Shown piece after piece: positions 6,760 through 19,549 of a stretch of DNA of 21,588 nt. Every line of letters starts with the position of its first letter. Positions within the stretch are counted from its first letter, which is position 1. A model generated the notes under the pieces. It saw nothing but the letters and a program-made list of their open reading frames with translations, was not told where the DNA came from and made no database searches. The position numbers and the translations under genes were made by a program. Source of the DNA: a virus; IMG/VR virus record IMGVR_UViG_3300035670_001383, positions 1-21,588 of that record. The stretch is one strand, 5' to 3'.

Positions 6760-7676
6760 ATAAGTCCTTCGATTTCTAGCCTGCAAAGGCTGCGCGTAGG
6801 ATAAGCGATGTCAATGGAAAAATCACGGTAAAAGCCATAAACAACTAGCGGCTCGTAAGTCTCATCGTCTGAGCCAATATAGACCGATGGCGTTGCGCGA
6901 ACGTCTGCGAGCAATCGCTGAACGTTTCTTAATCCGGTGTTGTCTAGCAAGAAGGTTGCACTCATTCGCTTGCTATACGCTCGCTCGGTAAAGGTAACAA
7001 CGCCCGTGTCTGGGTCAGTGTCCTTGCGCGAATAGTCGATGATGCCAATCGTTGCGCCTTGCTCAGTGCCGTAGTCGCCGAGCGTATATAAAATGCCATA
7101 GAGAAATTCGCCAATGCCTACAGTGCCCGTTCCTGTGATCGTGACCTTGATCTGGCTATTAAGATAAAGCGGCAATCCAGTGATAACAAGCTGGTCGCGG
7201 AAAACAAAAGGCTCGAAAAAGTATTCGTACCAATCATCGACAAACGATGTCTCAAGATCATAGGTTTGATCGAATAGCGGTGGGCTAGCTCCAGCATCGG
7301 TAACTGTAACGCGCACCGTTAAACCATCAAGGTTTAGCAAGGCAATAGAATCAACGAAGTTAGGTGCGGCTGCAACCGTGACCGAAAAGGTTGTTGTTGC
7401 CGTGGTCTGTGAGCTGACCTGACGATCAAACATAGCGCACTTATTGCATACGCCTAAATCCTGCCATTTCGTTGCGTCTGTGCCTGGTGTCGATGTGTTG
7501 CTGCTAACGAGGCTTATGAATATGTGGTTAACCGTATAACCAGGGTAAGAGACCGGATACAGTACCTTTGCGTCTTTAGCGTAGGAAGTGCCGCTTGCCC
7601 ACATAGCTGTAGGCTCTGGTGCCGTGTTAGCGATCACCATTGATGGCAAATAAGGTGCTGGCTTTAATAGTTTCAT
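6756..7676 (-). CDS. Tail-tip protein with carbohydrate-binding-like N-terminus, 306 aa
   Basis: Residues 25-75 have the spacing of a CBM5/12-like module: W26-x2-G-x2-Y32, then V38-L-Y, and a final tryptophan in ATKWQDLG. The rest is beta-rich with a segment about ligand-free strands ([20 protein letters not shown]) and a conserved-looking end ([18 protein letters not shown] then [15 protein letters not shown]). The position directly after the tape measure and before the fibre is where distal tail or hub proteins lie in siphophages, so a tail-tip role is likely. It is joined by ATGA overlaps to both neighbours. The exact homologous role (Dit versus other tip protein) cannot be decided from the sequence alone. 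Confidence 0.72.
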
Positions 7677-10600
7677 ACGGTCACCGTCTCTAGCGGTTGA
7701 TCGACATCAGTCTTGACCGTTAGCCCGCGAACATCCCAGTTATCTTGCAAGCGGAATATCTTAGAGGTGTTGATGGCCGTCGATCGGGTCTCGGCTCGCA
7801 TAAGCGTCACCTCATCGCGCAAAGCTCGAATCTCTGCTGCTACAACGTTCTCGCCGCCTACGACTGGGTTGTACTGCGCTGGCACGACAGCTTCGCCTTT
7901 GTGAAGGTAAGCGAGCATGTCTTGCGGGATAAAGTTTGTGCCGGTGGCCATGCCTCTGACATCGCTTTCAAGGTCTTTGTCACCTTGAGGGCCGCTATTA
8001 GCACCAGGGCTTGTGCCGCGAGTAAGACCAAGCGCTACGTTAACCGCATCGGTCGATGCAAATTGCAATTCTCGGCTAAATTGCTCGACTGCCTGTGCAG
8101 CAGATAATGATTCGCTAAAGTTCCATTGGTTCGGGTTGTTGTTTGGTACAACATCACCGAAGAGCTGACCATCGGTGAGCTTACCTCCGACGAATGTACC
8201 CCCCTTGCCATTCTTAGATGACTCAAGGCCAGCGTAGAGCTCTGCAACGCGTGTCCCACTGCCTGCTGCTGCTAGAGCTTCGTTAATACCACCTGCAAGC
8301 CCAGAGATTTCAGACTGTACGGTTGCGCCTTCGATCTGTCCACCGGATGGACCGCCGACATATTCAACTCCGTTAGGACCGAATAGATAACGACCCCCTG
8401 CGCGTGTTTCTCCGCCGCCTGCTAGCTTAGCAATTAGGGCCGCTGCACCTATGGCTAGACCTATAGGACCAAGCGCAGTAGCGACGCTGCTCATAGCCGA
8501 ACCTATGCCGCCAGCAATAGAAGAGACACCGCCAGCAATGCTTGTGCCTATGCCTGCGAGTGTCGTTCCAGCAGTTGCCGCTCCACCTGCAATAGCAGCC
8601 CCGCTAGTAACAGCACCGCCAGCGACAGCAGATGTAGCAGCCTGAGTGCCAAGCAAACTGGAAACCATGCTTTTGATCGCATTTGAAATCGGATTAGTAA
8701 TGCCGAGCAAACCTGCTGCGATACCATCCATGAATGGCTTGATAATTGATTCAGCGACAAAAGCCTTAAACCTGTTCTTAAGAACGTCAAGCAGGTTGTC
8801 GAAAAATCCCTTGCCTGACTCAAACCCGCGCATTAGTGCATCGGTTAGACCCTTGGAAAGCTCATCGGTTGTTTTCTTCCAAGCCTCAGCAGCATCTTTT
8901 GCTGATTGAACGTGTACGCCCTGTTCTTTCAGTTCGGCTAATTCTCTTAGTCGCTTAGCCTGCAAACTGTAGTTCTCTGCTGTCTCTGCATCGAAGTCAG
9001 CCTCTAGTGCTAGCTGTGCAGCCCTTTCTAGGCTTGCAGCCCGTTCTTTGATTTTGGCAACCTCAAGCATACCGACTTCTTGCTTGCTTAAAGTAAGACC
9101 TGCATTGAGTTCTTTTTGCTTTTCAACTTCTTTCTCAATCGAGCCTAGCGATTTGATCTGCTCACCAAGCAGCTTGTCTCGTGCATCTTGATAGCGCTGA
9201 GCCGCGGCAACACCGTTAGTCATCGCATTGTTTAGCTCTTTCTGTGCGACCAGCTCTTGAAGCATGACACCAACGCGAGTCTTTTGTTCGTCCGATAGCT
9301 TAGAGATTTCGTCGATGTACTTCTTGAGAAAATCGTTAGCATCGCGCTGAGCCTCAGACATCCCAGACAATGCGCCATCAGCCTCTAACAACTTAGCTGC
9401 CTGCTCATTGATTGAGCCTACAACCTTCTCGTAGGCCTTGGCCTGTTCTTCTAATTGCTTTTTGACTTCGCCTCGCTTAGTCGCCTCTTGTTCTAGCGCG
9501 ATGTTTCCTTCAAGCAGGGCAGCAATCTCTAGTTTGCGAGCGTCTGTGAGTTTGAGCGCACCCGTCTGGATGTCCATCATGACCTTGAGCGCTTCTTTCT
9601 GCGTCGAAGTCAGCTTTCCGTTATTAACCTCTTCAAGCAATAGCTCTGCATTGGTCTCGCGCAACTTCTCGACTAGCTTGGTATAAAGAGCCTGTTGCTT
9701 TTCCTGCTCTTTAATCTGCTCTTTAGTAAGCGCAATTGCTTTTTCTTGAGCTGGTGATGCGTTGGCTTCCATGAAGGCTGCACGCTGCTGCTCGCTCTCA
9801 TAAACTGCCTTGGTTGCTTCCTCGGCTCGCTTATTCTCGGCAACCATTGCGCTTATTGCGTTCACTGCTGGAACAGCAGCAGCGGTTAAGGCCATGATCG
9901 CAAGGGCAACAGGGTTAGCAGCGAAAGCAGCAGATAGCGCAACCACGCCAGCGGTTAGCGCACCGACAGCGGCAACGATGGCAGGCAACGCCGCAAGAAG
10001 AGCGCCGCCGGTAAAGATCCCAGCCCAAATCATGAGCTGCGTCTTGTTATTCTCGATGGCCGTTCCAAGGCTTGCAACACCGTTATTAAGGCCTTGAATA
10101 ACAGAGGTTAGACCGCGAACCGAATCAAGCAGGATGTCGCCAAATAGACCCTTATTGAAGGTCATGAAGAGCTGATCCCAAGTGTCGCCAAGGTTAGAAA
10201 TAGCGCCGTCTAAGGTCTTGGCTCGCGTCTCCATAGCGCCAGCAAAATCAACCTCACCAAGCCTGCGAAGATACTCGGTAATCTCTGCTGCGTTCTTTCC
10301 GACGGTCTCAGACATGCCGCGAAAGGTTAGCGTGACGCGATCACCCTCGGAACTCGCCTTGATGCCAAACTCTTTTAGACGCTCAAACTCGCCTGTAGCT
10401 GCGTCTGCAACAGCCTCGATGAGCTGGTTCAAGCTCTTGCCCATAGCGCTTGCTGTGTTGCCGTATGACTCCAAGGCTTCACGGCTTGCATCCAAGCCCA
10501 GCGCCTTCATCTTTACAAATGCGCCTGTAACCTCAGCGAGGCTAAAAGGTGTCGTTGCAGCGAAGTCCTTAATCCATGCAAACTCGATCTCTGCCGCACG

Positions 10601-10852
10601 GCTTGAGCCAGAAACGGTAATCAACGATGAATTAAGCACGTCGAACTCGCGCTGTACGGCTATGAGCTTCGTAGCAAACGCCTCGACGGATAACGCACCG
10701 ACAATGCTAGCAATGGCAGCAGTGGCAACGTCTACCGATTTCTTGATGTCGCCCATCGCGGTATCAACGGTCTTTTTGGCTTTGTCCATGTCCTGCTGCA
10801 AGCGGACTATGTTTGCCATCATCTCAATCGTAAGCGTGCCGACTGTGTTCAT
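7673..10852 (-). CDS. Tail tape measure protein, 1059 aa
   Basis: It sets tail length and later helps DNA passage. Residues 60-240 form the tape-measure N-terminal domain (FDVLNSSLITVSGSSRAAEI, then FAATTPFSLAEVTGAFVKMK, ALESYGNTASAMGKSLNQLI, and ATGEFERLKEFGIKASSEGD). A hydrophobic segment rich in A, V and L covers about 265-335, a long charged coiled-coil region about 340-690, and a glycine/alanine-rich hydrophobic stretch about 725-815. The C-terminus includes GTNFIPQDMLAYLHKGEAVV, common at tape-measure ends. There is no visible lysozyme or peptidase insert. With the usual 1.5 angstrom per residue, a tail of roughly 150 nm is inferred. The ATG overlaps the T-like stop by four bases. Confidence 0.95.
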   Translation of the reverse strand: MNTVGTLTIEMMANIVRLQQDMDKAKKTVDTAMGDIKKSVDVATAAIASIVGALSVEAFATKLIAVQREFDVLNSSLITVSGSSRAAEIEFAWIKDFAATTPFSLAEVTGAFVKMKALGLDASREALESYGNTASAMGKSLNQLIEAVADAATGEFERLKEFGIKASSEGDRVTLTFRGMSETVGKNAAEITEYLRRLGEVDFAGAMETRAKTLDGAISNLGDTWDQLFMTFNKGLFGDILLDSVRGLTSVIQGLNNGVASLGTAIENNKTQLMIWAGIFTGGALLAALPAIVAAVGALTAGVVALSAAFAANPVALAIMALTAAAVPAVNAISAMVAENKRAEEATKAVYESEQQRAAFMEANASPAQEKAIALTKEQIKEQEKQQALYTKLVEKLRETNAELLLEEVNNGKLTSTQKEALKVMMDIQTGALKLTDARKLEIAALLEGNIALEQEATKRGEVKKQLEEQAKAYEKVVGSINEQAAKLLEADGALSGMSEAQRDANDFLKKYIDEISKLSDEQKTRVGVMLQELVAQKELNNAMTNGVAAAQRYQDARDKLLGEQIKSLGSIEKEVEKQKELNAGLTLSKQEVGMLEVAKIKERAASLERAAQLALEADFDAETAENYSLQAKRLRELAELKEQGVHVQSAKDAAEAWKKTTDELSKGLTDALMRGFESGKGFFDNLLDVLKNRFKAFVAESIIKPFMDGIAAGLLGITNPISNAIKSMVSSLLGTQAATSAVAGGAVTSGAAIAGGAATAGTTLAGIGTSIAGGVSSIAGGIGSAMSSVATALGPIGLAIGAAALIAKLAGGGETRAGGRYLFGPNGVEYVGGPSGGQIEGATVQSEISGLAGGINEALAAAGSGTRVAELYAGLESSKNGKGGTFVGGKLTDGQLFGDVVPNNNPNQWNFSESLSAAQAVEQFSRELQFASTDAVNVALGLTRGTSPGANSGPQGDKDLESDVRGMATGTNFIPQDMLAYLHKGEAVVPAQYNPVVGGENVVAAEIRALRDEVTLMRAETRSTAINTSKIFRLQDNWDVRGLTVKTDVDQPLETVTV

Positions 10853-11163
10853 TTCTTGGCCTGAATAAATGCCTTAAATGCGTTGCCTATTCTCTTGCTT
10901 ACTGCTGCGCGATCAAAGGTGTTAATAGGATCACCATAAGGCGGTGGCCGATCTGGTGACTCAGCCTGCCGAAATTCGTCCAAGTATACCCTTGACATGC
11001 CTAAAAGGATAGCGAACTCCCAGGGCTGTAGGTCAGCGCTGGTAGCGTTTGCCCATGCCTGTACAGTAACGGGAGAAAGCGGAGATGGCCCTGCGCCGTG
11101 GTTCTCGACCATGCCCAAAGCAGTCCAATAGCTAACAAGATAGTCGGCCTGCACATCCGGCAT
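10849..11163 (-). CDS. Tail assembly chaperone, T-like part (probably made as a G-T frameshift fusion), 104 aa from its first ATG
   Basis: The gene lies between the G-like chaperone and the tape measure. It contains the helix DLQPWEFAILLGMSRVYLDE, typical of lambda gpT-like proteins, and a basic C-terminus. Its frame is open upstream of ATG 11163 all the way back through the end of the G-like gene; in that frame the codons read YAEVAEELTLYARQLGWF and on to the ATG, 48 codons without a stop. The ATG has no clear ribosome site. This favours production by a -1 shift at 11307-11313, giving a fusion of about 279 residues (127 from G, 152 from this frame). Independent initiation at 11163 cannot be excluded. 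Confidence 0.85.
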   Translation of the reverse strand: MPDVQADYLVSYWTALGMVENHGAGPSPLSPVTVQAWANATSADLQPWEFAILLGMSRVYLDEFRQAESPDRPPPYGDPINTFDRAAVSKRIGNAFKAFIQAKK

Positions 11164-11282
11164 AAGCGGAGTGCCGCCACGGTTGAGGATGTCTTGCTGT
11201 CGCGGAAGTGGCTTCTCTTTGCTAACAGATTCAGGACGCTTAGGGGTGGCATGAAACCACCCGAGCTGGCGAGCGTATAGCG

Positions 11283-11687
11283 TCAGTTCTTCTGCGACTT
11301 CTGCATAAAATTTGCCCAGTCACCGATAGCTTTGTTTACCTGCTCGCTAATAAAGCCAATGCTTGCATCAAGATACACAGCCTTAAACATCTCAGCGCCG
11401 GTCAGGTCTTTGTAACCAAAGCCATTAAAAGAGACTGTGCAAGCGGCTAAGAACTCTGCATCGAGCTCCCGCTGCTCGTTGTCTTTCATCTTCTTGCCGC
11501 CCTTCTTGACGAATTCTAGGACCGCACGATTGCGGATGCCCTGCGCCCGTTGGAATGGCTTAGAGCCTGGCCCGTAAATGGTGATGCTAAGGGCTTCGCC
11601 TTTGTCGTTAGTTAGCGGGTCGCCATCAGGCGTTTCTAACTCGACGATTGTAGTCTCGCTGACTGCGAGTGAGGAAATGTCAAACAT
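11283..11687 (-). CDS. Tail assembly chaperone, G-like, 134 aa
   Basis: It follows the tail tube gene and precedes the tape measure, the place of gpG in lambda-type tails, where the chaperone coats the tape measure before tube assembly. The N-terminus (FDISSLAVSETTIVELETPD) and the middle (ITIYGPGSKPFQRAQGIRNR) resemble chaperones of the tail-tube-adjacent type. The C-terminal part (FNGFGYKDLTGAEMFKAVYL, then FISEQVNKAIGDWANF) is helical. The start is ATG 11687, six bases after GAAGGA; the frame is open to 11780 but that part is proline- and glycine-rich and lacks an initiation site. A slippery heptamer lies eight codons before the stop. Confidence 0.85.
   Translation of the reverse strand: MFDISSLAVSETTIVELETPDGDPLTNDKGEALSITIYGPGSKPFQRAQGIRNRAVLEFVKKGGKKMKDNEQRELDAEFLAACTVSFNGFGYKDLTGAEMFKAVYLDASIGFISEQVNKAIGDWANFMQKSQKN
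11307..11313 (-). other. Programmed -1 ribosomal frameshift site, A AAT TTT
   Basis: Read on the minus strand, the zero-frame codons GCA AAT TTT ATG contain A AAT TTT, a perfect X XXY YYZ slippery heptamer (codons for N and F). Slipping back one base puts the ribosome into the T-like frame, which has no stop until 10849. The G-frame stop (TGA) comes 22 bases after the heptamer. The arrangement is the same as in lambda, where a -1 slip near the end of G makes the gpG-T fusion at low frequency; the heptamer sequence differs from the lambda one. A short inverted repeat at 11244-11262 lies downstream but rather far away. Confidence 0.78.
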
Positions 11688-11695
11688 GATTGATC

Positions 11696-11743
11696 CTTCG
11701 CGGGGATGTTTGCCCTTACCCCGAGCCCGTTGACCCCGCGAAG
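11696..11743 (-). promoter_or_regulatory. 10-bp hairpin ahead of the chaperone gene, covering part of its ribosome binding site
   Basis: On the minus strand CTTCGCGGGG (11743 to 11734) pairs perfectly with CCCCGCGAAG (11705 to 11696) around a 28-base loop. The 3' arm contains the GAAG of the Shine-Dalgarno sequence GAAGGA of the chaperone gene (ATG 11687). Folding would hide that site and hold down translation relative to the tail tube gene just upstream. There is no T-run after the stem, so it is not a classical terminator. It could alternatively be an mRNA processing or stability element. Confidence 0.6.
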
Positions 11744-11780
11744 AGTCAGGCGAGCCAGGGGCAGGTGCTAGGTGAGCCAA

Positions 11781-12257
11781 TTAAGCGGCTAAAGATTCGA
11801 CGATGCCTACGCCAGCACTGTTGGTCGTGATCTCAAGCGTTACCGATGCGGTGGTGATCGAATCAACCGAACCGACGTTAACCTTGAAGTTCATGACCTT
11901 GGCCTGGAAGAAATACTTATCGCCATTCTGAGTCGTAACTTTGAACGAATAGTCAGCGTCAGAAAGCGAAGCGGTTTTCATAATAATCTGGCCAGCATCG
12001 TCGGTGTCTAGACCGAGCGTCATCGACATCGTGCCCTCGTTAAAGCTACCCTTAAATTTCTGGGTGCCACGAGTACCGACGGGGTTATGAGTAACAAGTG
12101 CGTACTCACGACCAAACTCGCCAAGGTCGGTGATCTCGCCAACCAAGGCTGGTGCGGGCGATGCGTCGAACAGCGTGTTGTAGCCGGATGCGTTAAAGGT
12201 TGCAGGTGCAGACGATGTGACCCTAAGGGTTGAGCCTGCGGAGGTTGCGACAGTCAT
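11781..12257 (-). CDS. Major tail tube protein, 158 aa
   Basis: The size, position and composition fit the major tail tube protein of a siphophage: a beta-rich, G/T/S/V-rich sequence with FNASGYNTLFDASPAPALVG at the start, GEFGREYALVTHNPVGTRGT, GSFNEGTMSMTLGLDTDDAG and a regular strand pattern at the end (SITTASVTLEITTNSAG). The tube is the most abundant tail protein and polymerises as hexamer rings around the tape measure. GGAG lies six bases before ATG 12257. It is bordered by a terminator-like hairpin upstream and a stable hairpin downstream, as expected for a gene that needs its own expression level. Confidence 0.87.
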   Translation of the reverse strand: MTVATSAGSTLRVTSSAPATFNASGYNTLFDASPAPALVGEITDLGEFGREYALVTHNPVGTRGTQKFKGSFNEGTMSMTLGLDTDDAGQIIMKTASLSDADYSFKVTTQNGDKYFFQAKVMNFKVNVGSVDSITTASVTLEITTNSAGVGIVESLAA

Positions 12258-12289: not shown

Positions 12290-12687
12290 CACTCGTAGTA
12301 CATCAAAACGTAGTCGGCTGGTTGCGTCCAGACTCCAATGTCGTTGTCTCGATCAACAGGGCCGATGACATCTAATCGACAACTTACGATTTTATGTCCC
12401 AAAACAGTGTCATTATGCTTGAAATCAAGCAAATTTCGCAACGCAGTGAGAATAGAGGCAACGCCTGCAATGTTTTTAGCCAGCGGATTAAATTGAATTC
12501 GAGCGCGCGCCATTTGATCAGCCGTCTGGTAGGACAGCGTAGGCTCTGGCGTGGTGTCAATCACTGTGTAAACCAGCGCCGGATATTGCGTATTCTTAGG
12601 TAGCTGCACGAGCGCCTTACGACTGCCGACAAGATTTGTAATGCTTGCGTCGTTTAGCAGCTCGGCAATGATTAGTTCAGCGCTCAT
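12289..12687 (-). CDS. DUF3168-type tail completion/terminator protein, 132 aa
   Basis: It resembles the DUF3168 group (gpU or SPP1 gp17-like), which caps the head-proximal end of the tail tube and joins it to the head. Typical features are the N-terminal helix (ELIIAELLNDASITNLVGSR), a strand pair QYPALVYTVIDTTPEPTLSY, a central RARIQFNPLA strand followed by the helix SILTALRNLLD, and an end DIGVWTQPADYVLMYYE. The length is usual for the family. The start ATG overlaps the stop of the upstream gene (ATGA), and a terminator-like hairpin begins at its stop codon. Confidence 0.85.
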   Translation of the reverse strand: MSAELIIAELLNDASITNLVGSRKALVQLPKNTQYPALVYTVIDTTPEPTLSYQTADQMARARIQFNPLAKNIAGVASILTALRNLLDFKHNDTVLGHKIVSCRLDVIGPVDRDNDIGVWTQPADYVLMYYE

Positions 12688-13244
12688 TTTAGCTTTGCAA
12701 CCTCGATGGGTAAGCGATTCTCGACGTAAAGCCTAAAGGCCTCGGCAGCGTCTTTCTGCTTGCGATCAAAAGCCTTACGCATAAAAAACTGTGGCTTAAT
12801 GCCAGGGTGCATGACAGCGTTACGGATCACAAAGCCTCCAGGCGTTTGAAACTTGATCCTTTTCGATACCGTGTTTTTCGTTTTCGCACTGCCCCTACCC
12901 ATTGTGGCCTTTGGGATTCTGTAGGGCTTACGCACACTTCGACCGCTTCCAACGTAATAGCTGGCAGTCCCAAATTCGAGCATGTGAGCGTAAAAAGCAC
13001 CGCCTTTATTTTTATCGATTCTGACGTACCCGTACGCGACACCACGACGAACGTCTGACTCAGACTTGATGGACTTGCGAAGAAAACCGGAATCTCTAGG
13101 GACATTAGCCCTTGCCTCATCTCTAAAGACAGCAGCGCCAGCGCGCAAAGCACCGCGAGTGATGTTGCGCTCGATTCTTACTGGTAGCTCCTGAAGGGCT
13201 GCGTAGAGCTCAGCAAGTCCGGTGACTTCGAATTCGTTAGCCAC
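12684..13244 (-). CDS. HK97 gp10-family tail completion protein, 186 aa
   Basis: The N-terminus FEVTGLAELYAALQELPVRI, followed by TRGALRAGAAVFRDEARANV, PRDSGFLRKSIK and YAHMLEFGTASY, and the end GIKPQFFMRKAFDRKQ are the standard blocks of the HK97 gp10/lambda gpZ-like family, which acts at the head-tail joint during tail completion. The protein is slightly longer than most because of a basic insert (about residues 105-140, RKPYRIPKATMGRGSAKTKN). The start is GTG 13244; no strong ribosome site precedes it, so it may depend on coupling with the upstream gene, whose stop is four bases away. Confidence 0.9.
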   Translation of the reverse strand: MANEFEVTGLAELYAALQELPVRIERNITRGALRAGAAVFRDEARANVPRDSGFLRKSIKSESDVRRGVAYGYVRIDKNKGGAFYAHMLEFGTASYYVGSGRSVRKPYRIPKATMGRGSAKTKNTVSKRIKFQTPGGFVIRNAVMHPGIKPQFFMRKAFDRKQKDAAEAFRLYVENRLPIEVAKLK

Positions 13245-13247
13245 GGT

Positions 13248-13589
13248 TTAGCTTAGAGAATCAGCGCCTACCGAATCAGCAGCGATGGGATCAGCAACAA
13301 CAGGCACAATCCATTGGCAAGTCGCTTCGTCAAGCGTTGCATCATCACTTGGCCGTGGCGGGATGAAAGCATCACGCGCTGCGTCGTAGGTATAACCCAG
13401 GCCAGCGTAATTCTTGCGGAAGTTGCCGTTATACGAAGTCTGCTTCCAAGTGCCGCCAAGCAATCGTTCGCAGAAGGCTGCGCCGATGTATTCCTTCTCA
13501 ACACCGCTTGCGTCTGCTGTGTCTTTGTTATCAACAACGATGACTTGTTGGACGATTCCGTTTTCATCAATGCGGCAAAAATGTGCCAT
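13248..13589 (-). CDS. Aquatic-phage-type conserved protein, 113 aa
   Basis: The pattern MAHFCRIDENGIVQQVIVVD, then GAAFCERLLGGTWKQTSYNG, NFRKNYAGLGYTYDAARDAF and IPPRP, then a late ATCQWIVPV, is one I know from many marine and freshwater tailed phages, where the gene lies among fibre and tail genes. Its role is unproven; suggestions in annotations are structural or fibre assembly. GGAGG, encoded in the last codons of the oxygenase gene, lies seven bases before ATG 13589, so the two genes are coupled. The acidic C-terminal tail (AADSVGADSLS) is low complexity. Confidence 0.8.
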   Translation of the reverse strand: MAHFCRIDENGIVQQVIVVDNKDTADASGVEKEYIGAAFCERLLGGTWKQTSYNGNFRKNYAGLGYTYDAARDAFIPPRPSDDATLDEATCQWIVPVVADPIAADSVGADSLS

Positions 13590-13591
13590 GG

Positions 13592-14194
13592 CTATGCCTC
13601 CAGCTTCAAACCAGTTAAATCCATCTCTTCCCCAACAGTACCCACAGGGAAGGTATTAAACGATAAAGAGATGCGGGTTGTTTCACCCTGCACGTTAGGA
13701 ACCATATGCGTTAAAGATGAGGGAAACAGAATCAATCGGCCTGCATAAGCCTCAAACCACCAACTCTCTGAGTTATAAGCATTCCAGTTATCGGTAGGAA
13801 ACTTGATCTGTTGCCAGCCGTCTTTGTAAAAATAGATTCGGTCATCAGGATTGGTCTGCACATAAAACACACCTGAGATATACGAATTGGGGTGTGCATG
13901 CTTGTGGTGGTACTGACCTTGTTCTGAGTAGTTGCACCAGCTTTGCGTAACGCGCAAGGACACGTTGTGCTTTGGGTTGACAGTGGATTTGAAGTATTCC
14001 GATACCGAATCTTCAATGAATGATCTGAGTGACGTTAAGGCTGGATCACGCAAGACAAAGTTATTCGTGCTTGTCGTGTTACCCATATTCGGGCGTGTCT
14101 CAAGCTCACGGATGAAGAACAACTCCTCATCGCTTAACGGGCGACCGAGATCGGCAAAACCTACCGCTGTCGGGAATAGGTTATGCAATTGCAT
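13592..14194 (-). CDS. 2-oxoglutarate/Fe(II)-dependent oxygenase, TIGR02466-like, 200 aa
   Basis: The family of putative 2OG oxygenases found in cyanophages and other aquatic phages shares the block SWCNYSEQGQYHHKHAHPNS followed by ISGVFYVQ, and a second block AGRLILFPSSLTHMVPNVQG with TTRISLSFN. From ATG 14194, likely iron ligands are a histidine of the HKHAH group (H99 or H101) and H163, and R174 would bind 2-oxoglutarate. The expected substrate is a protein or small molecule hydroxylated at the cost of 2OG; nothing here identifies it. TTG 14200 is an alternative start. It lies in the fibre block, between small proteins of unknown function. Confidence 0.85.
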   Translation of the reverse strand: MQLHNLFPTAVGFADLGRPLSDEELFFIRELETRPNMGNTTSTNNFVLRDPALTSLRSFIEDSVSEYFKSTVNPKHNVSLRVTQSWCNYSEQGQYHHKHAHPNSYISGVFYVQTNPDDRIYFYKDGWQQIKFPTDNWNAYNSESWWFEAYAGRLILFPSSLTHMVPNVQGETTRISLSFNTFPVGTVGEEMDLTGLKLEA

Positions 14195-14438
14195 CTTCAA
14201 TCTCTTTCATCTTGATGCCCATTTCCTCTAACTGCTCTGGCAGCCACATTGTAGGAATTGACTCTTCAAACTCTTTGATCTTGTCCATCACCCAGTAAAC
14301 CTCATCCATACTCGGACAGGGGCGTGGATCATCCCAGCGTGTAAAGACGTTATTAGAGATTTCCCACTTAGCACCAGGGCGAAGCATGTGCATCGCCGTA
14401 TCAATGCCGAGGAAGCGGTAAATTTTCGTGTTTTCCAT
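14181..14438 (-). CDS. Aquatic-phage-type small conserved protein, 85 aa
   Basis: The sequence KIYRFLGIDTAMHMLRPGAK, then WEISNNVFTRWDDPRPCPS and a helical acidic end (YWVMDKIKEFEESIPTMWLP) follow a small family I recall from marine and freshwater phage genomes. No function is known. GAGGT lies a few bases before ATG 14438 and follows the stop of the glycine-rich gene directly. Its end overlaps the oxygenase gene by 14 bases, so the pair is probably translated together. Confidence 0.8.
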   Translation of the reverse strand: MENTKIYRFLGIDTAMHMLRPGAKWEISNNVFTRWDDPRPCPSMDEVYWVMDKIKEFEESIPTMWLPEQLEEMGIKMKEIEDAIA

Positions 14439-14446
14439 TTGACCTC

Positions 14447-16147
14447 TTATTGATTTATTTTGATGATGACAATGCCTGAACCGCCAGTGCCACCAGCGGG
14501 AGTAACATCACCTGTTCCGCCACCACCACCGCCCGTATTAGCAGTACCAGAACCGCCCGCTGTTGCATTGTTAGTTCCGCTGCCTGCGCCTCCAGGATCA
14601 TTGGGTGCAGCACCGCCCCCACGTCCAGCAGTCCCTGCGGGTGAAGTATTTGCACCGCCACCGCCCCCACCCGCATAGTAAACAGTTGTTCCCGATATAG
14701 ATGAACTCGCAGCAAGACCGCCGTTTCCAGCTACGTTGGTTGACGGAGACCTAGCACCATTTTGTCCTGCTCCACCTGCTCCACCTCCACCGCCTCCACC
14801 ACCGGTAGCAGCAGTGTTTAATTCCTGAGAATTGCCACCAGCATAACCTTGAACGGAGTTTGCATCCGGTGGTGAAGATGATGCCGGTGTATTACCTGGG
14901 CCTCCAGCAGAGTTTCCTCGCCCGCCACTACCACCCCCAGAACCACCTGGGCCACCAGTAAGGCCATATCCCCCTGCATAACCACCGCCTGTTGACGTAA
15001 TCGTCCCGTAAGGCGAGTTTGCGCCAGCAAGCGTAGAGTCAACTCCTTTTGTAGCACTACTGGGGAAAGAACTTCCTGGCCCTCCACCACCAATGGTAAT
15101 GGTTAAGACACTTCCTGCGGTTACTGCCAAACCTGTTCCTCGTCTAAACCCGCCACCACCACCACCACCGCCTCTATCAGCGGAACCACCACCACCGCCA
15201 GCGACGATCAAATAGTCAATACTCGTCACACCAGCAGGGACAGTCCACTGACCAGACCCTTTGAAGGTGAATACAGTTTGACTTGGTGCTTGATATTTCA
15301 GAATGACAATGCCGGAGCCGCCAGATGCTTGTGTGACTGCTGTTGAACTATAGTCAGAACCACCGCCTGCGCCACCTCCAGTATTTGCCGTTCCATCAGT
15401 GCCTTTTACTTGAGTGGTCGTAAATCCACTAGAACCGTTTCCACCACCACCTTTTTCAGATGCTGGGCTAGAAACACCACCACCAAGGCCTCCGGTTCCA
15501 CTAGCGCCACCGCCGCCTCCGCCGCCAGCGTAATAAACCGTTGAGCCGCTAATGGTAGAAGATAAGGCAATACCTCCATTGCCACCATTAGTGCTTCCTG
15601 CTGCGCCTGCGCCACCTGAACCACCACCGCCACCGGCCTGTTGATTTGGAGCCGCCGATCCAGCTCCGCCAGCAGATCCCTGGCCTGAAGGTGATGCTGT
15701 GCCACCTCCGCCACCACCTCCGCCACCACCTCCGCCAGAGCCGCCGCTTCTTCCAGCTTGGCTTTGGTTATTACCGCCGCCACCACCTGTAGACACAATA
15801 CCTGGGGTTGCAAATGGTGATGGACTGCTACCACCAACAATGGAAGAAATGCTTCCATCTTGCGTTGCACTAGCATTTACAGTACCAGCACCCCCAGCAC
15901 CGCCTGCACCAACTGTAATAGTGTAATCAGTTCCGGCAGATACAGCAGCACTAGTTCCGGTTCTGTATCCGCCGCCACCGCCGCCACCATTTCTATTGCC
16001 AGAAGTTCCACCACCCCCAGCAACGATCAAGTAATCAACCTCAGTTACCCCAGCAGGGCAAGTCCAGTCTTGTGTCGCTGTGAAGGTTTGGATGATGGTG
16101 TACCTACTCCCCATCGCTCCAATCAATAAATTAAGGATGCCAGTCAT
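14447..16147 (-). CDS. Glycine-rich surface protein with a duplicated domain, 566 aa
   Basis: The protein consists of two copies of the glycine-rich domain often seen at the tips of phage fibres and in adhesins. Copy 1 (about residues 22-290) begins QDWTCPAGVTEVDYLIVAGG and ends SGIVILKYQ; copy 2 (about 295-566) begins GQWTVPAGVTSIDYLIVAGG and ends SGIVIIKINQ. Between these edges both copies consist of runs of glycine with YYAGGGGGGG motifs, suggesting polyglycine-type helices packed in layers. A role in host or surface contact is inferred. ATG 16147 follows the stop of the upstream gene by one base with no clear ribosome site, so coupling is likely. Confidence 0.8.
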   Translation of the reverse strand: MTGILNLLIGAMGSRYTIIQTFTATQDWTCPAGVTEVDYLIVAGGGGTSGNRNGGGGGGGYRTGTSAAVSAGTDYTITVGAGGAGGAGTVNASATQDGSISSIVGGSSPSPFATPGIVSTGGGGGNNQSQAGRSGGSGGGGGGGGGGGGTASPSGQGSAGGAGSAAPNQQAGGGGGSGGAGAAGSTNGGNGGIALSSTISGSTVYYAGGGGGGGASGTGGLGGGVSSPASEKGGGGNGSSGFTTTQVKGTDGTANTGGGAGGGSDYSSTAVTQASGGSGIVILKYQAPSQTVFTFKGSGQWTVPAGVTSIDYLIVAGGGGGSADRGGGGGGGGFRRGTGLAVTAGSVLTITIGGGGPGSSFPSSATKGVDSTLAGANSPYGTITSTGGGYAGGYGLTGGPGGSGGGSGGRGNSAGGPGNTPASSSPPDANSVQGYAGGNSQELNTAATGGGGGGGGAGGAGQNGARSPSTNVAGNGGLAASSSISGTTVYYAGGGGGGANTSPAGTAGRGGGAAPNDPGGAGSGTNNATAGGSGTANTGGGGGGTGDVTPAGGTGGSGIVIIKINQ

Positions 16148-16148
16148 G

Positions 16149-16598
16149 TTAGGTCAACCCGTTGCCAGAGATCAGCCATGTCGTGCTAGTCATCTTGACT
16201 GCTGTGGCAATACCATACTGAGCAAGACTCCGTGATCCCGTAGATCCCGTTCCTGCTTGGTAAAGCGTATCGCTCGTGATCGCAATCGTGACAACCTGCG
16301 AAGTCATGTTAATGAAAGTCAACACCGTACCCGTCGCATAAGCCACCGAAGCGTTAGCAGGGATCGTGAACGTCCTTGCGTTGGCGTCCGTCGAGGGGTG
16401 GAAGATAACCTTCCCGGCATCAGCAGCAACCGCCGTATAAGCGGCAGACTGCTCATTGATCGGCGCGTTTAGGTAGCCAAGCGTGTCTGCTGACGTTGAA
16501 TCAGGTAGCGTAAGGGTTGCTGATACCGACGTATTCGGGCTTTGTAGCGTGGTCGTACCAGCGCCAGAAGCATTACCCTGAACTTTAAGATTGCTCAT
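16149..16598 (-). CDS. Phage structural-type protein, 149 aa
   Basis: The start SNLKVQGNASGAGTTTLQSP and the beta-rich body (ARTFTIPANASVAYATGTVL, then FINMTSQVVTIAITSDTLYQ, ending in TSTTWLISGNGLT) match a type of small virion protein that I recall from phages with similar fibre genes; the middle resembles the last beta domain of many fibre proteins. It may be a fibre partner or decoration protein. The GGAG for ATG 16598 is provided by the last codons of the 837-aa fibre gene, so the two are coupled. Confidence 0.72.
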   Translation of the reverse strand: MSNLKVQGNASGAGTTTLQSPNTSVSATLTLPDSTSADTLGYLNAPINEQSAAYTAVAADAGKVIFHPSTDANARTFTIPANASVAYATGTVLTFINMTSQVVTIAITSDTLYQAGTGSTGSRSLAQYGIATAVKMTSTTWLISGNGLT

Positions 16599-16604
16599 TG
16601 ATGT

Positions 16605-19118
16605 TTACTCCAAAATTAACCAGCGTTGACCTGTTCCAACCGTAACTGCAACACCCGTATTAACTGTCACCGGACCTGCACTTAAACCGTTGTAAGAGGA
16701 GGTTATTGTGTAGTTGCTTGAGATAGTCTGCAAGTTTTCAAGAATAGTTGCAGAACCACTGCCACCAGGTATATTTACTGTTACCGCTCCGGTTGATGCT
16801 GTTGCGGTCACTCCTGCGCCGGTGAAATTAAAACTTGTGACTCCGGCTGTAATCTGCGTACCTTCATCGGATACAGGTACGGAACTTCCTCCGCCACTAG
16901 CAGCAATCGTGATTGCGCCATCGCCATTCGTGATGGTTACGTTAGAGCCAGCAGTCAATGTAGCCTTGCTTAGACCGCCAGAAGCGTTACCAATCAATAG
17001 CTGTCCATTGGTATAACTTGTTTGGCCTGTACCGCCGTTAGCAACTGCTACTGTGCCGGTCACATTTGAGGCTGTGCCTGTCGTATTCTGATTCAGTGTT
17101 GGAACGTCTGCTGCTTGTATAGCAGACATAACCACGTTTGTGCCGTTGCCGCGCAAGAATTGACCGCTAGTGGTCGCACCTGCCAGCGAGTTGATAGCAG
17201 ATTGGGCAGTTGTCTGGCCTGTGCCGCCATTGGCTAGCGCAAGCGTTCCGGCTAACGTAATCGTTCCTGTGCTTGTAACTGGGCCGCCAGACGTTGTAAG
17301 GCCGGTCGTACCACCTGAGACATCAATCGATGTAACCGTTCCTGATCCAGCGGTCGATGAAAGTGTTCCCGCTGCTAATGTCAAGCCAGATCCAACCGTG
17401 ACATTAGCAAAACCGCCTGAGCCATTGTTGGCGAGCAATTGCGCGTTCGTTCCTGTCGTTGCTGCTGCGTAGTCAGTACCAGCAGTGGCATTGCTAAACC
17501 CGCCGGTTCCGTTGCCCTTCAGAATCGCTGTACCAGAGGTTGCCGGAGCGTAATCTGTGCCTGCAACCGCATTAGCAAGCGCACCGCCTGAGTTAGCTTT
17601 GAGAATCGCTGTGCCTGATGGAGGTGCTAAATAATCGCTGCCAGCAGATGCGTTGCTAAAGCCTCCGGTGCCAGAACCCTTGAGTATGCTTGTGCCTGAT
17701 GTTGCGGGAGCGTAATCCGTCCCGCTTGCAGCCGCTGCGATCACGCCTGACGATGCTTTTAGCAATCCAGTGGTTGATGCAGCCTTAATCAGCTTTCCGG
17801 TCGTGCCATCGAATAGTGCAATTTGACTATCTGTGGCCGATGATGGTCCGACAACATCGCCTGATCCGCCTGCGCCAGTAGCCGAGAGCGTTCCCGCGCT
17901 AAAACTCAAACCAGTGCCGACGGTTACGTTGCTAAAACCGCCTGAACCATTGCCGTAGAGAATCGAGGTTCCGCTTGTGGCTGGTGCGTAATCTGTGCCG
18001 CTTGTCGCTGTAGTAAAGCCAGACCCGTTACCCTTGAGAATCCCGCTAATGGCAGTCGTGACAGCGATCGTGCCCGAAGTAGTTACTGGAGAATTGGCAA
18101 CCGTGAACCCACTGGGCATGGTTAAACCAACAGATGTGACCGTTCCCGAGCCTGAACCTGTAGCCGTTAGCGTACCGCTGGTTAGGTCAAGCCCTGAGCC
18201 TACAGTAACGTTGGAAAAGCCTCCAGAGCCATCGTTAGCAAGTAGCTGGGTATTTGTACCCGTCGGGCTTGCTGGTACGCCTAGAGCTGTTCTAGCGCCT
18301 GATTCTGTAGTCGCACCAGTGCCGCCATTAGCGATTGCGACCGTTCCAGTCACATTAGAAGCCGTGCCCGTCGTGTTTTGGTTAAATGTGGGCCAGGTCT
18401 GACCAGCATCAAAGCTGATTGAGCCTGTCATTGTCCCGCCCGCTAAGGGCAGCTTTGTACTATCTGCAACCGTGATATTCGCGGTGCCGTCAAACGACAC
18501 GCCGTTGATTGTCCTGGCGGTCTGTAAGGCTGTGGCCGTTGCTGCGTTGCCCGTCGTGTTTTGATTAAGCGTTGGAACATCAGCAGCGACTAAAGCCCTG
18601 AAAGTAGGCGCACCAGACGATCCGTTAGGCGCAGCAAGTACATAGTTTGCTGTCTTGGCCGCATAAGGGTTAACCGTGTCGCCGTAGGCTGTGGCAAGCG
18701 CAATCGTGCCTGTGCTGGTAATGGTGCCACCGCTTAGTCCTGTGCCTGCTGTGATGCTAGTGATACCGCCCGCGCTTTCCTCTGCCCACTCTACATCCGT
18801 CGCTCCAGCATTGACCTTAAGCACCTTCGTAGCGTTGCCAGCATAAGGCGGCAATAGATTAGTCCTTGCCCCAGCAGCAGTGCCAGCCCCAGTGCCACCG
18901 TCTGCAATCGCCAAGTCAGTGATTCCAGCAATTGAGCCTCCCGTAATCGAGACATTGTTAGAGTCTTGCGTTGAAATCGTGCCGAGCGTACTAGTTGCAA
19001 GCGTCGTAATATCGCCAATAGAGATTTTGAAGTTACTAGCGCCGCGCGTAACGGGGATTTCATCGCCTGCTTGGGCTGGCGATCCGTCGTTAAGCTGACT
19101 GATCTTTACGTCTGCCAT
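16605..19118 (-). CDS. Large fibre-like structural protein with tandem repeats, 837 aa
   Basis: It begins MADVKISQLNDGSPAQAGDE, IPVTRGASNFKISIGDI, a start common to phage fibre and spike proteins. The body is nearly all G, T, S, A and N in short strands: ANGGTGATT- and ANGGTGQTT-type turns, LQTARTINGVSFDGTANITV near residue 200, and three exact-length 27-residue repeats (17481-17723) of the form GTDYAPATSGTAILKGNGTG plus GFSNATA. One segment, GDVVGPSSATDSQIALFDGT, is shared with the fibre at 5326-6759. The end is QRWLILE. A trimeric beta-rich fibre is inferred. The position upstream of the tail-completion genes, rather than after the tape measure, is unusual. Confidence 0.82.
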   Translation of the reverse strand: MADVKISQLNDGSPAQAGDEIPVTRGASNFKISIGDITTLATSTLGTISTQDSNNVSITGGSIAGITDLAIADGGTGAGTAAGARTNLLPPYAGNATKVLKVNAGATDVEWAEESAGGITSITAGTGLSGGTITSTGTIALATAYGDTVNPYAAKTANYVLAAPNGSSGAPTFRALVAADVPTLNQNTTGNAATATALQTARTINGVSFDGTANITVADSTKLPLAGGTMTGSISFDAGQTWPTFNQNTTGTASNVTGTVAIANGGTGATTESGARTALGVPASPTGTNTQLLANDGSGGFSNVTVGSGLDLTSGTLTATGSGSGTVTSVGLTMPSGFTVANSPVTTSGTIAVTTAISGILKGNGSGFTTATSGTDYAPATSGTSILYGNGSGGFSNVTVGTGLSFSAGTLSATGAGGSGDVVGPSSATDSQIALFDGTTGKLIKAASTTGLLKASSGVIAAAASGTDYAPATSGTSILKGSGTGGFSNASAGSDYLAPPSGTAILKANSGGALANAVAGTDYAPATSGTAILKGNGTGGFSNATAGTDYAAATTGTNAQLLANNGSGGFANVTVGSGLTLAAGTLSSTAGSGTVTSIDVSGGTTGLTTSGGPVTSTGTITLAGTLALANGGTGQTTAQSAINSLAGATTSGQFLRGNGTNVVMSAIQAADVPTLNQNTTGTASNVTGTVAVANGGTGQTSYTNGQLLIGNASGGLSKATLTAGSNVTITNGDGAITIAASGGGSSVPVSDEGTQITAGVTSFNFTGAGVTATASTGAVTVNIPGGSGSATILENLQTISSNYTITSSYNGLSAGPVTVNTGVAVTVGTGQRWLILE
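17481..17723 (-). repeat. Three tandem 81-bp coding repeats in the large fibre gene
   Basis: Units at 17723-17643, 17642-17562 and 17561-17481 (minus strand) each encode 27 residues. The first and third are close copies; the middle one is diverged (GSDYLAPPSGTAILKANSGG). A 29-residue derivative follows (17480-17394) and another related unit begins at 17999. The units could expand or contract by recombination. Confidence 0.75.
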
Positions 19119-19120
19119 GT

Positions 19121-19549
19121 CTACTCCAAAATCAAATAATCGCCATTTTCGAGAATGAGAATATCGCCATTCTCAAGCGCAAAGCTCTCAATCTCTCCTT
19201 GCAGTACAACGCCAGAGTCTTTGCATTCAAAAACAATAGAGCGTCGATCTTCCTCGATGTCATACGCCGCGGCAATGTTGTAAACACGGCTCTGGTAGAC
19301 AATCCGCCGAGAATCGGTAATCGATGCAGGCAGAAAATTAGGGTTATAACGAACAGTAATTTCATGCGTAATGTCTGGGCTAAGCTCAAAGGCTTTAATT
19401 TTCTCACGCGCAGACGTTGATTTGACCGGACGGATGCCAGCCCAAACAATTGCAATATCAGCCCAGTTTTCAATTTGCTGGCCATAGTCATCGGTCGATA
19501 CGCTTTGCTCTTGTATGCGTATGCGTCGGTTGAGTTTTCCAGCTCGCAC
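19121..19549 (-). CDS. SPP1 gp16-type head closure (head-tail joining) protein with extra repeat tail, 142 aa
   Basis: The first 115 residues fit the head-closure stopper family: GKLNRRIRIQEQSVSTDDYG, then WADIAIVWAGIRPVKSTSAR, then ITHEITVRYNPN, and the closing strands RIVYQSRVYNIAAAYDIEED and RRSIVFEC. This protein plugs the connector after packaging and receives the tail. The end is odd: after KDSGVVLQGEIESFA comes LENGDILILENGDYLILE, a near-perfect duplication not expected in the family. The start is GTG 19549, placed just after the stop of the connector gene. The last codons (TTG GAG TAG) also supply the ribosome site of the next gene. Confidence 0.85.
   Translation of the reverse strand: MRAGKLNRRIRIQEQSVSTDDYGQQIENWADIAIVWAGIRPVKSTSAREKIKAFELSPDITHEITVRYNPNFLPASITDSRRIVYQSRVYNIAAAYDIEEDRRSIVFECKDSGVVLQGEIESFALENGDILILENGDYLILE

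Follow-up and report, generated by a model that had tools for sequence, protein, structure and literature searches.

A covarying RNA element upstream of a predicted frameshifting G/GT-type tail chaperone cassette in a phage genome

It is known for bacteriophage lambda that the relative amounts of tail tube, chaperone and fusion protein matter. In RBS-masking pseudoknots, as in the SAM-II and preQ1 riboswitches and in r-protein autoregulation, the SD region of the following gene is masked through pairing with a hairpin loop. The lambda chaperones gpG and gpGT bind the tape measure protein, and T recruits the tail tube protein (PMC5009743). The locus described here lies in a viral DNA stretch of 21,588 nucleotides (IMG/VR record IMGVR_UViG_3300035670_001383), which is called the window throughout, and it is organized like the lambda gpG/gpGT pair (PMC5009743). 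Two chaperone products would be made from one start by a -1 slip near the end of G, the T domain would be present in the fusion only, and the pair has the major tail gene on one side and the tape measure gene on the other (Table 1). With a probability of about 0.8 we take the locus to be a lambda G/GT-type chaperone cassette with a slip on A_AAU_UUU and with an upstream RNA element which controls ribosome entry and most likely keeps it low.

Table 1. Features of the chaperone locus and its neighbours in the window.
Feature	Position	Strand	Basis
Major tail protein	11781..12257	(-)	phrog_158 major tail protein, 1.1e-14
Structured RNA element, 80 nt, between major tail gene and G	11691..11770	(-)	Covariation; recurrence in other phages
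RNA element hairpin (conserved bulged A and internal loop close to the base)	11712..11768	(-)	RNAalifold, pair counts
Long-range helix, 5' strand (hairpin apex TTCGCGGGG)	11734..11742	(-)	Complementary to 11705-11697
Long-range helix, 3' strand CCCCGCGAA, running into SD GAAGGA (11699-11694)	11697..11705	(-)	Pairing retained in loci with altered sequences
G-like tail assembly chaperone, 134 aa	11283..11687	(-)	ORF; between major tail protein and tape measure
-1 slippery heptamer A_AAT_TTT	11307..11313	(-)	Sequence; kept exactly in 82/83 loci
-1 frame, T-like domain of the predicted fusion	10849..11319	(-)	Open frame, phrog_18915 match, linker selection
ORF starting at the ATG, in the form expected from a gene caller	10849..11163	(-)	ATG absent in 14/60 distinct relatives
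Tape measure protein	7673..10852	(-)	PF20155 TMP_3, 3.4e-13; several tape-measure PHROGs

Searches of PHROGs, Pfam and NCBIfam with the G protein of the window returned no family at E <= 0.001. Among PDB structures the HK97 tail assembly chaperone 2ob9 best matched the AlphaFold model of G (mean pLDDT 69), with a Foldseek E value of 0.38, which is weak as a number, and the top structures in VIA-align were YqbN 3klu (Z 5.8) and again 2ob9 (Z 5.7). In BFVD the models of G and T (pLDDT 80 for T) separately matched the same annotated fused proteins, namely the tape measure chaperones of Seurat (A0A0A0RTG6) and Sansa (A0A0K1LLW3) and the tail assembly chaperone of K1H (D2XJD7); the matches of the G model to named chaperones were at 6e-3 and weaker. 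The G proteins of relatives match phrog_313, Tail assembly chaperone. The T domain matched phrog_18915 with 1.7e-13. Against PF23812 (Phage_TAC_18) it reached 0.0074 in the window, 1.8e-5 in the Salicola relative and 3.4e-28 in the distant Mannheimia phage relative, which scores 98; the T domain of the window, at 16.8 bits versus a curated cut-off of 27, is no formal member of this family. Position, fold and remote family matches together support the assignment of G and T as chaperone-like. The tape measure gene begins with an ATG that shares bases with the stop codon of the -1 frame. In the Acinetobacter phages Effie and MD-2021a (L038, L040) a gene annotated as terminase was found soon after the chaperone pair, in the place of the tape measure gene. 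The window also contains long repetitive fibre-like ORFs (14447-16147 and 16605-19118) and other small genes in the region 13248-19118 (-). These fibre-like ORFs are unusually placed, between the head closure protein (19121-19549) and a gp10-like tail completion gene (12684-13244).

The reading frames around the putative shift site were checked directly in the sequence, and what the earlier note had described there was borne out. The G codons GCA AAT TTT place A_AAT_TTT in the zero frame (11313-11307), and the stop codon of G starts 22 bases past the heptamer. The last stop in the -1 frame is TGA 11322-11320, after which this frame reads from 11319 without interruption until the stop whose last base is 10849. 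Ahead of ATG 11163, which follows 48 codons past the slip, the -1 frame contains neither ATG nor GTG nor TTG. The predicted G-T fusion has 279 residues, as had been estimated. An in-frame XXXYYYZ occurs 9 times in the 5709 codon positions of the window's minus-strand genes, and the overlap, with some 10 codon positions that could be used, would be expected to contain about 0.016 by chance. A chance origin of the heptamer is untenable because it is conserved across loci.

This conservation was determined in two scans. The first scan used the -1 frame protein as query and yielded 35 loci; AAATTTT was present at the same place in all 34 loci that reached the site, down to 48% protein identity. 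One of its patterns, KFYAEVAE, overlapped the heptamer site. In order to remove this bias, the query alignment of the second scan started after the heptamer (patterns NAFKAFI and RQL[AG]WF...). Among its 83 usable loci, 79 viral and 4 from bacterial genomes, 82 carried AAATTTT at the homologous place and the remaining one showed TTTTTTG one codon on. The result was the same as in the first scan, despite a query without the heptamer. The earlier note had proposed such an alignment of related phages and had named -1 frame stops ahead of ATG 11163 as an outcome that would speak against a fusion. The -1 linker was open in 62 of 62 distinct sequences, with a stop upstream of ATG 11163 in none. In the linker, from the G stop to ATG 11163, pN/pS amounted to 0.08-0.29 in the -1 frame, whereas the other two frames gave values of about 0.7-6 or undefined ones and contained stops in 21-22 of 25 sequences. 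By this comparative measure the linker evolves as protein in the -1 frame only. Of the 61 G residues that are invariant in 24 loci, codon choice is likewise fixed for just two, the N and F within the heptamer. This is supportive, and the invariant AAT TTT codons were dropped as a proof of slipperiness, since the K-F-Y of the overlapping -1 frame forces the same bases. The conserved heptamer and the selection on the -1 linker, along with the chaperone-like position, fold and remote matches, support the lambda-style G/GT pair with a -1 shift which the earlier note had proposed.

Alternatively, T could be a separate protein made from ATG 11163, with the open -1 frame upstream being incidental. 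An ATG is indeed found at this position in 32 of the 34 loci of the first scan. In the wider scan, however, 14 of 60 distinct relatives have no start codon there, and the ATG lacks a consistent SD, a GGAGG-like sequence preceding it in about one relative. Moreover, the linker is open in all relatives and under purifying selection in the -1 frame, and the phrog_18915 profile aligns well upstream of the ATG. Separate synthesis of T is thus very unlikely, and the ATG-started ORF probably does not correspond to a separate product.

Shift sites are present at the same junction in distant isolates as well. AAATTTT was found in Salicola CGphi29 and in the Acinetobacter phages Effie and MD-2021a, AAATTTC in 438212, TTTTTTC in Vibrio 230E39-1 and GGGAAAG, the site of lambda, in Mannheimia 1152AP2. 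Unrelated-looking chaperones apparently keep the frameshift while swapping the shift site. These sites also bear on transcriptional slippage, which could generate the fusion in place of ribosomal frameshifting and for which the homopolymer runs at the site would speak. The runs are just A3 and T4, though, and such runs are short for polymerase slippage; the TTTTTTC, GGGAAAG and AAATTTC of relatives fit tandem tRNA slippage. We regard a transcriptional origin as extremely improbable. The heptamer differs from the lambda site, as the earlier note had remarked. Its further statement that the efficiency is unknown holds only in part, since A_AAU_UUU belongs to the class H_HH.U_UU.Y, whose members were among the most efficient heptamers with the IS3 pseudoknot in a systematic E. 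coli assay (PMC4066793).

Some junctions contain no XXXYYYZ. In phiHSIC-like Vibrio phages (L041, L042, L044-L047, L049 and L050, near 3001) the G/T junction shows a constant GCT/ACT TTT A. These phages, taken together with L285, L307, L268, L287, L330 and L317, which bear the RNA element, have a constant GCT, ACT, CTT or CGT codon before TTT A (TTC in L307). The constant codon followed by TTT A suggests a -1 shift of the T_TTT tetramer type or an otherwise non-canonical one; in E. coli, T_TTT tetramers have a weak tendency to shift (PMC4066793).

No conserved stimulator of the slip could be established in the aligned loci. On the 3' side of the heptamer the z-scores of single sequences vary and RNAalifold gives no consensus hairpin. 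A candidate helix 43-63 nt downstream of the heptamer (window 11263-11243, (-)) had 78.6% paired cells with mixed controls. On the upstream side, visual inspection of the aligned sequences revealed nothing SD-like that could act as a stimulator. From the open frames, the shift site and the selection in the -1 frame we infer that slippage takes place, at a rate that would leave the fusion the minor product. By the comparative evidence the frameshift at the window locus is real and ordinary in kind.

Upstream of G, where the SD-like GAAGGA is located, an alignment of the 90-nt spacer that follows the tail gene revealed strong conservation. The earlier note had not remarked on the RNA element here. 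RNAalifold folded this region into a hairpin of 22-23 bp. In 11 sequences 98.4% of the cells were paired, and 12 of the 23 pairs had changes on both sides. The covariation score for these sequences was 0.593, compared with 0.235 for shuffled alignments and at most 0.14 for slid versions. The apex of the hairpin can in addition pair with the sequence just before the start codon. One set of loci had been picked by its apex/SD complement and was therefore kept out of the test of this long-range helix, for which we used only loci found through the T protein or the hairpin base. In 17 loci fetched by protein alone, 7-8 of 8 positions paired and three pairs were changed on both sides, examples being ATCGCTGG/CCAGCGAT and TTCGCGGA/TCCGCGAA. 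In a scan that used the hairpin base only, an apex/pre-start complement of 7-12 nt was present in 25 of 25 model hits. In 1000 shuffles a complement of at least 7 nt occurred on average in 0.4 of the 25 loci and never in more than 3; among mismatched partners it occurred in 14%. The sequences of the helix differ widely among these loci, as in CTCGCAGGTG/CACCTGCGAG and CTGTGCTGGGG/CCCCAGCACAG.

The stretch covered by the element is also open in the G frame (window 11780-11688, (-)), from TTG 11780 directly after the stop of the tail gene, and in relatives this stretch starts with ATG (MATRAPTRVSSHPSRG...). Judged from these frames, an N-terminally extended G is possible. In L300 four matches to the hairpin-base pattern follow each other within 330 bases (846-1178, (-)), where the RNA model is silent; they probably represent an unrelated repeat.

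The element recurs in many unrelated phages. Searches with the RNA model gave 95 hits, for which 87 distinct intact downstream genes were readable. These encode proteins of 103-164 aa and start at a median of 5 nt past the end of the element. In 77 of them an in-frame XXXYYYZ at the end is combined with a -1 ORF of at least 50 codons, the heptamers being AAATTTT (31), GGGAAAC (17), TTTTTTG (11), AAATTTC (8), AAAAAAC (7) and others (3). Nine more have a -1 ORF without XXXYYYZ, several of them with CTT or GCT TTT A, and the last one is cut by the end of its locus. Those downstream genes that were sampled gave matches to tail families with chaperone or tape-measure labels, and the upstream gene sampled in L157 matches a major tail protein family (phrog_584, 4e-54). 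Four Burkholderiales genomes contain the element in the same context. The element is thus a practical marker which points to a classical frameshift gene in 77 of 87 cases. One further hit of the RNA model, in L179, was rejected as a chance match.

The window and 15 other loci showed no match in Rfam 15 at the gathering threshold; the best hit below it was sX7 on the opposite strand, with 13.2 bits versus a cut-off of 55. The element models matched none of the isolates checked, which is no evidence that isolates in general go without it. Because it is absent from all of these, the element is not general to such cassettes. A blast search of the element against phages returned only short chance matches inside coding sequence. 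In the literature searched, with most subscription journals outside its reach, neither a report of such an element nor a dedicated RNA control upstream of G turned up. At the boundary between tail gene and chaperone gene a terminator-like hairpin was read by eye in DC31 and P26059A, both among the isolates without the element, and one is annotated in the Mannheimia record. These hairpins suggest that a drop of expression after the tail gene is generally wanted.

The element most likely sets the translation of G/GT, probably as a brake. It could also raise translation of G, its fold positioning the ribosome or replacing a weak SD. In accordance with an activating role, the element-bearing loci L307, L285 and L317 lack a clear SD in the stretch from the helix to the start codon, an arrangement that agrees poorly with a brake that acts purely by SD masking. 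Most members, however, have an SD-like AAAGGA or GAAGGA into which the 3' strand of the helix runs, and the terminator-like hairpins at the same boundary in other phages suggest that expression is meant to fall. Activation is rather unlikely. Processing or stability of the RNA, with an mRNA end or an RNase site between the tail gene and G in place of an effect on initiation, would agree with the intercistronic position and the very stable hairpin. In essentially all loci, however, the long-range helix precedes the start codon by a few bases (median distance from element end to start, 5 nt), which would be needless for processing, and we consider this role improbable.

For a cassette under translational control by the element we propose the following course of events. 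Most ribosomes would end at the G stop and release the 134-aa chaperone. A minority would slip back by one base on A_AAU_UUU, where the tRNAs on AAU and UUU would re-pair on AAA and UUU in a standard tandem slip, and would produce the G-T fusion of 279 aa. If its two parts act like their lambda counterparts, the G part would bind the tape measure protein and the T part would recruit the major tail protein. The RNA element would control the entry of ribosomes into the cassette. The apical loop of the long hairpin would pair just before and into the SD of G, either as a pseudoknot or with the top of the hairpin displaced, and would most likely hold the translation of G/GT far under the level of the abundant tail protein. 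This control may be relieved or reinforced by a protein that binds the conserved hairpin base. Sequence evidence shows the hairpin, the long-range helix and the linkage to frameshifting chaperone genes; the protein partners and the direction and trigger of the control are inferred.

Follow-up is warranted for the RNA element more than for the frameshift. The loci compared show both its structure and its linkage, and its role may be that of a brake, an activator or a sensor. Tentatively, and with somewhat less than an even chance, it may represent an undescribed, widespread class of phage RNAs for frameshifting tail chaperones, a switchable pseudoknot which senses a tail protein through the conserved hairpin base. 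If so, the chaperone would be made in the right amount and at the right time relative to the tail tube. The occurrence of a covarying RNA at the boundary between tail tube and chaperone genes in many lineages makes such a control testable.

Compared with the known systems, the locus has a zero-frame slippery site near the end of the first ORF, an open and startless coding -1 frame and a location between tail gene and tape measure gene. The frameshift by itself adds a member to the known lambda G/GT kind, and the textbook system gains one more phage group with a different heptamer. Unlike lambda with its G_GGA_AAG, the window uses A_AAU_UUU, its G has no detectable sequence similarity to named families, and an RNA element precedes G. 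The top structural matches of the G model, the HK97 chaperone 2ob9 and YqbN 3klu, share about 10% identity with it, and the match is not significant alone. The T domain is like Phage_TAC_18 (PF23812), yet stays under the cut-off of the family. Like RBS-masking pseudoknots, the hairpin loop of the window element can pair with the SD region of the next gene. Unlike them, the element has no Rfam match and no known ligand and is tied to phage tail chaperone genes.
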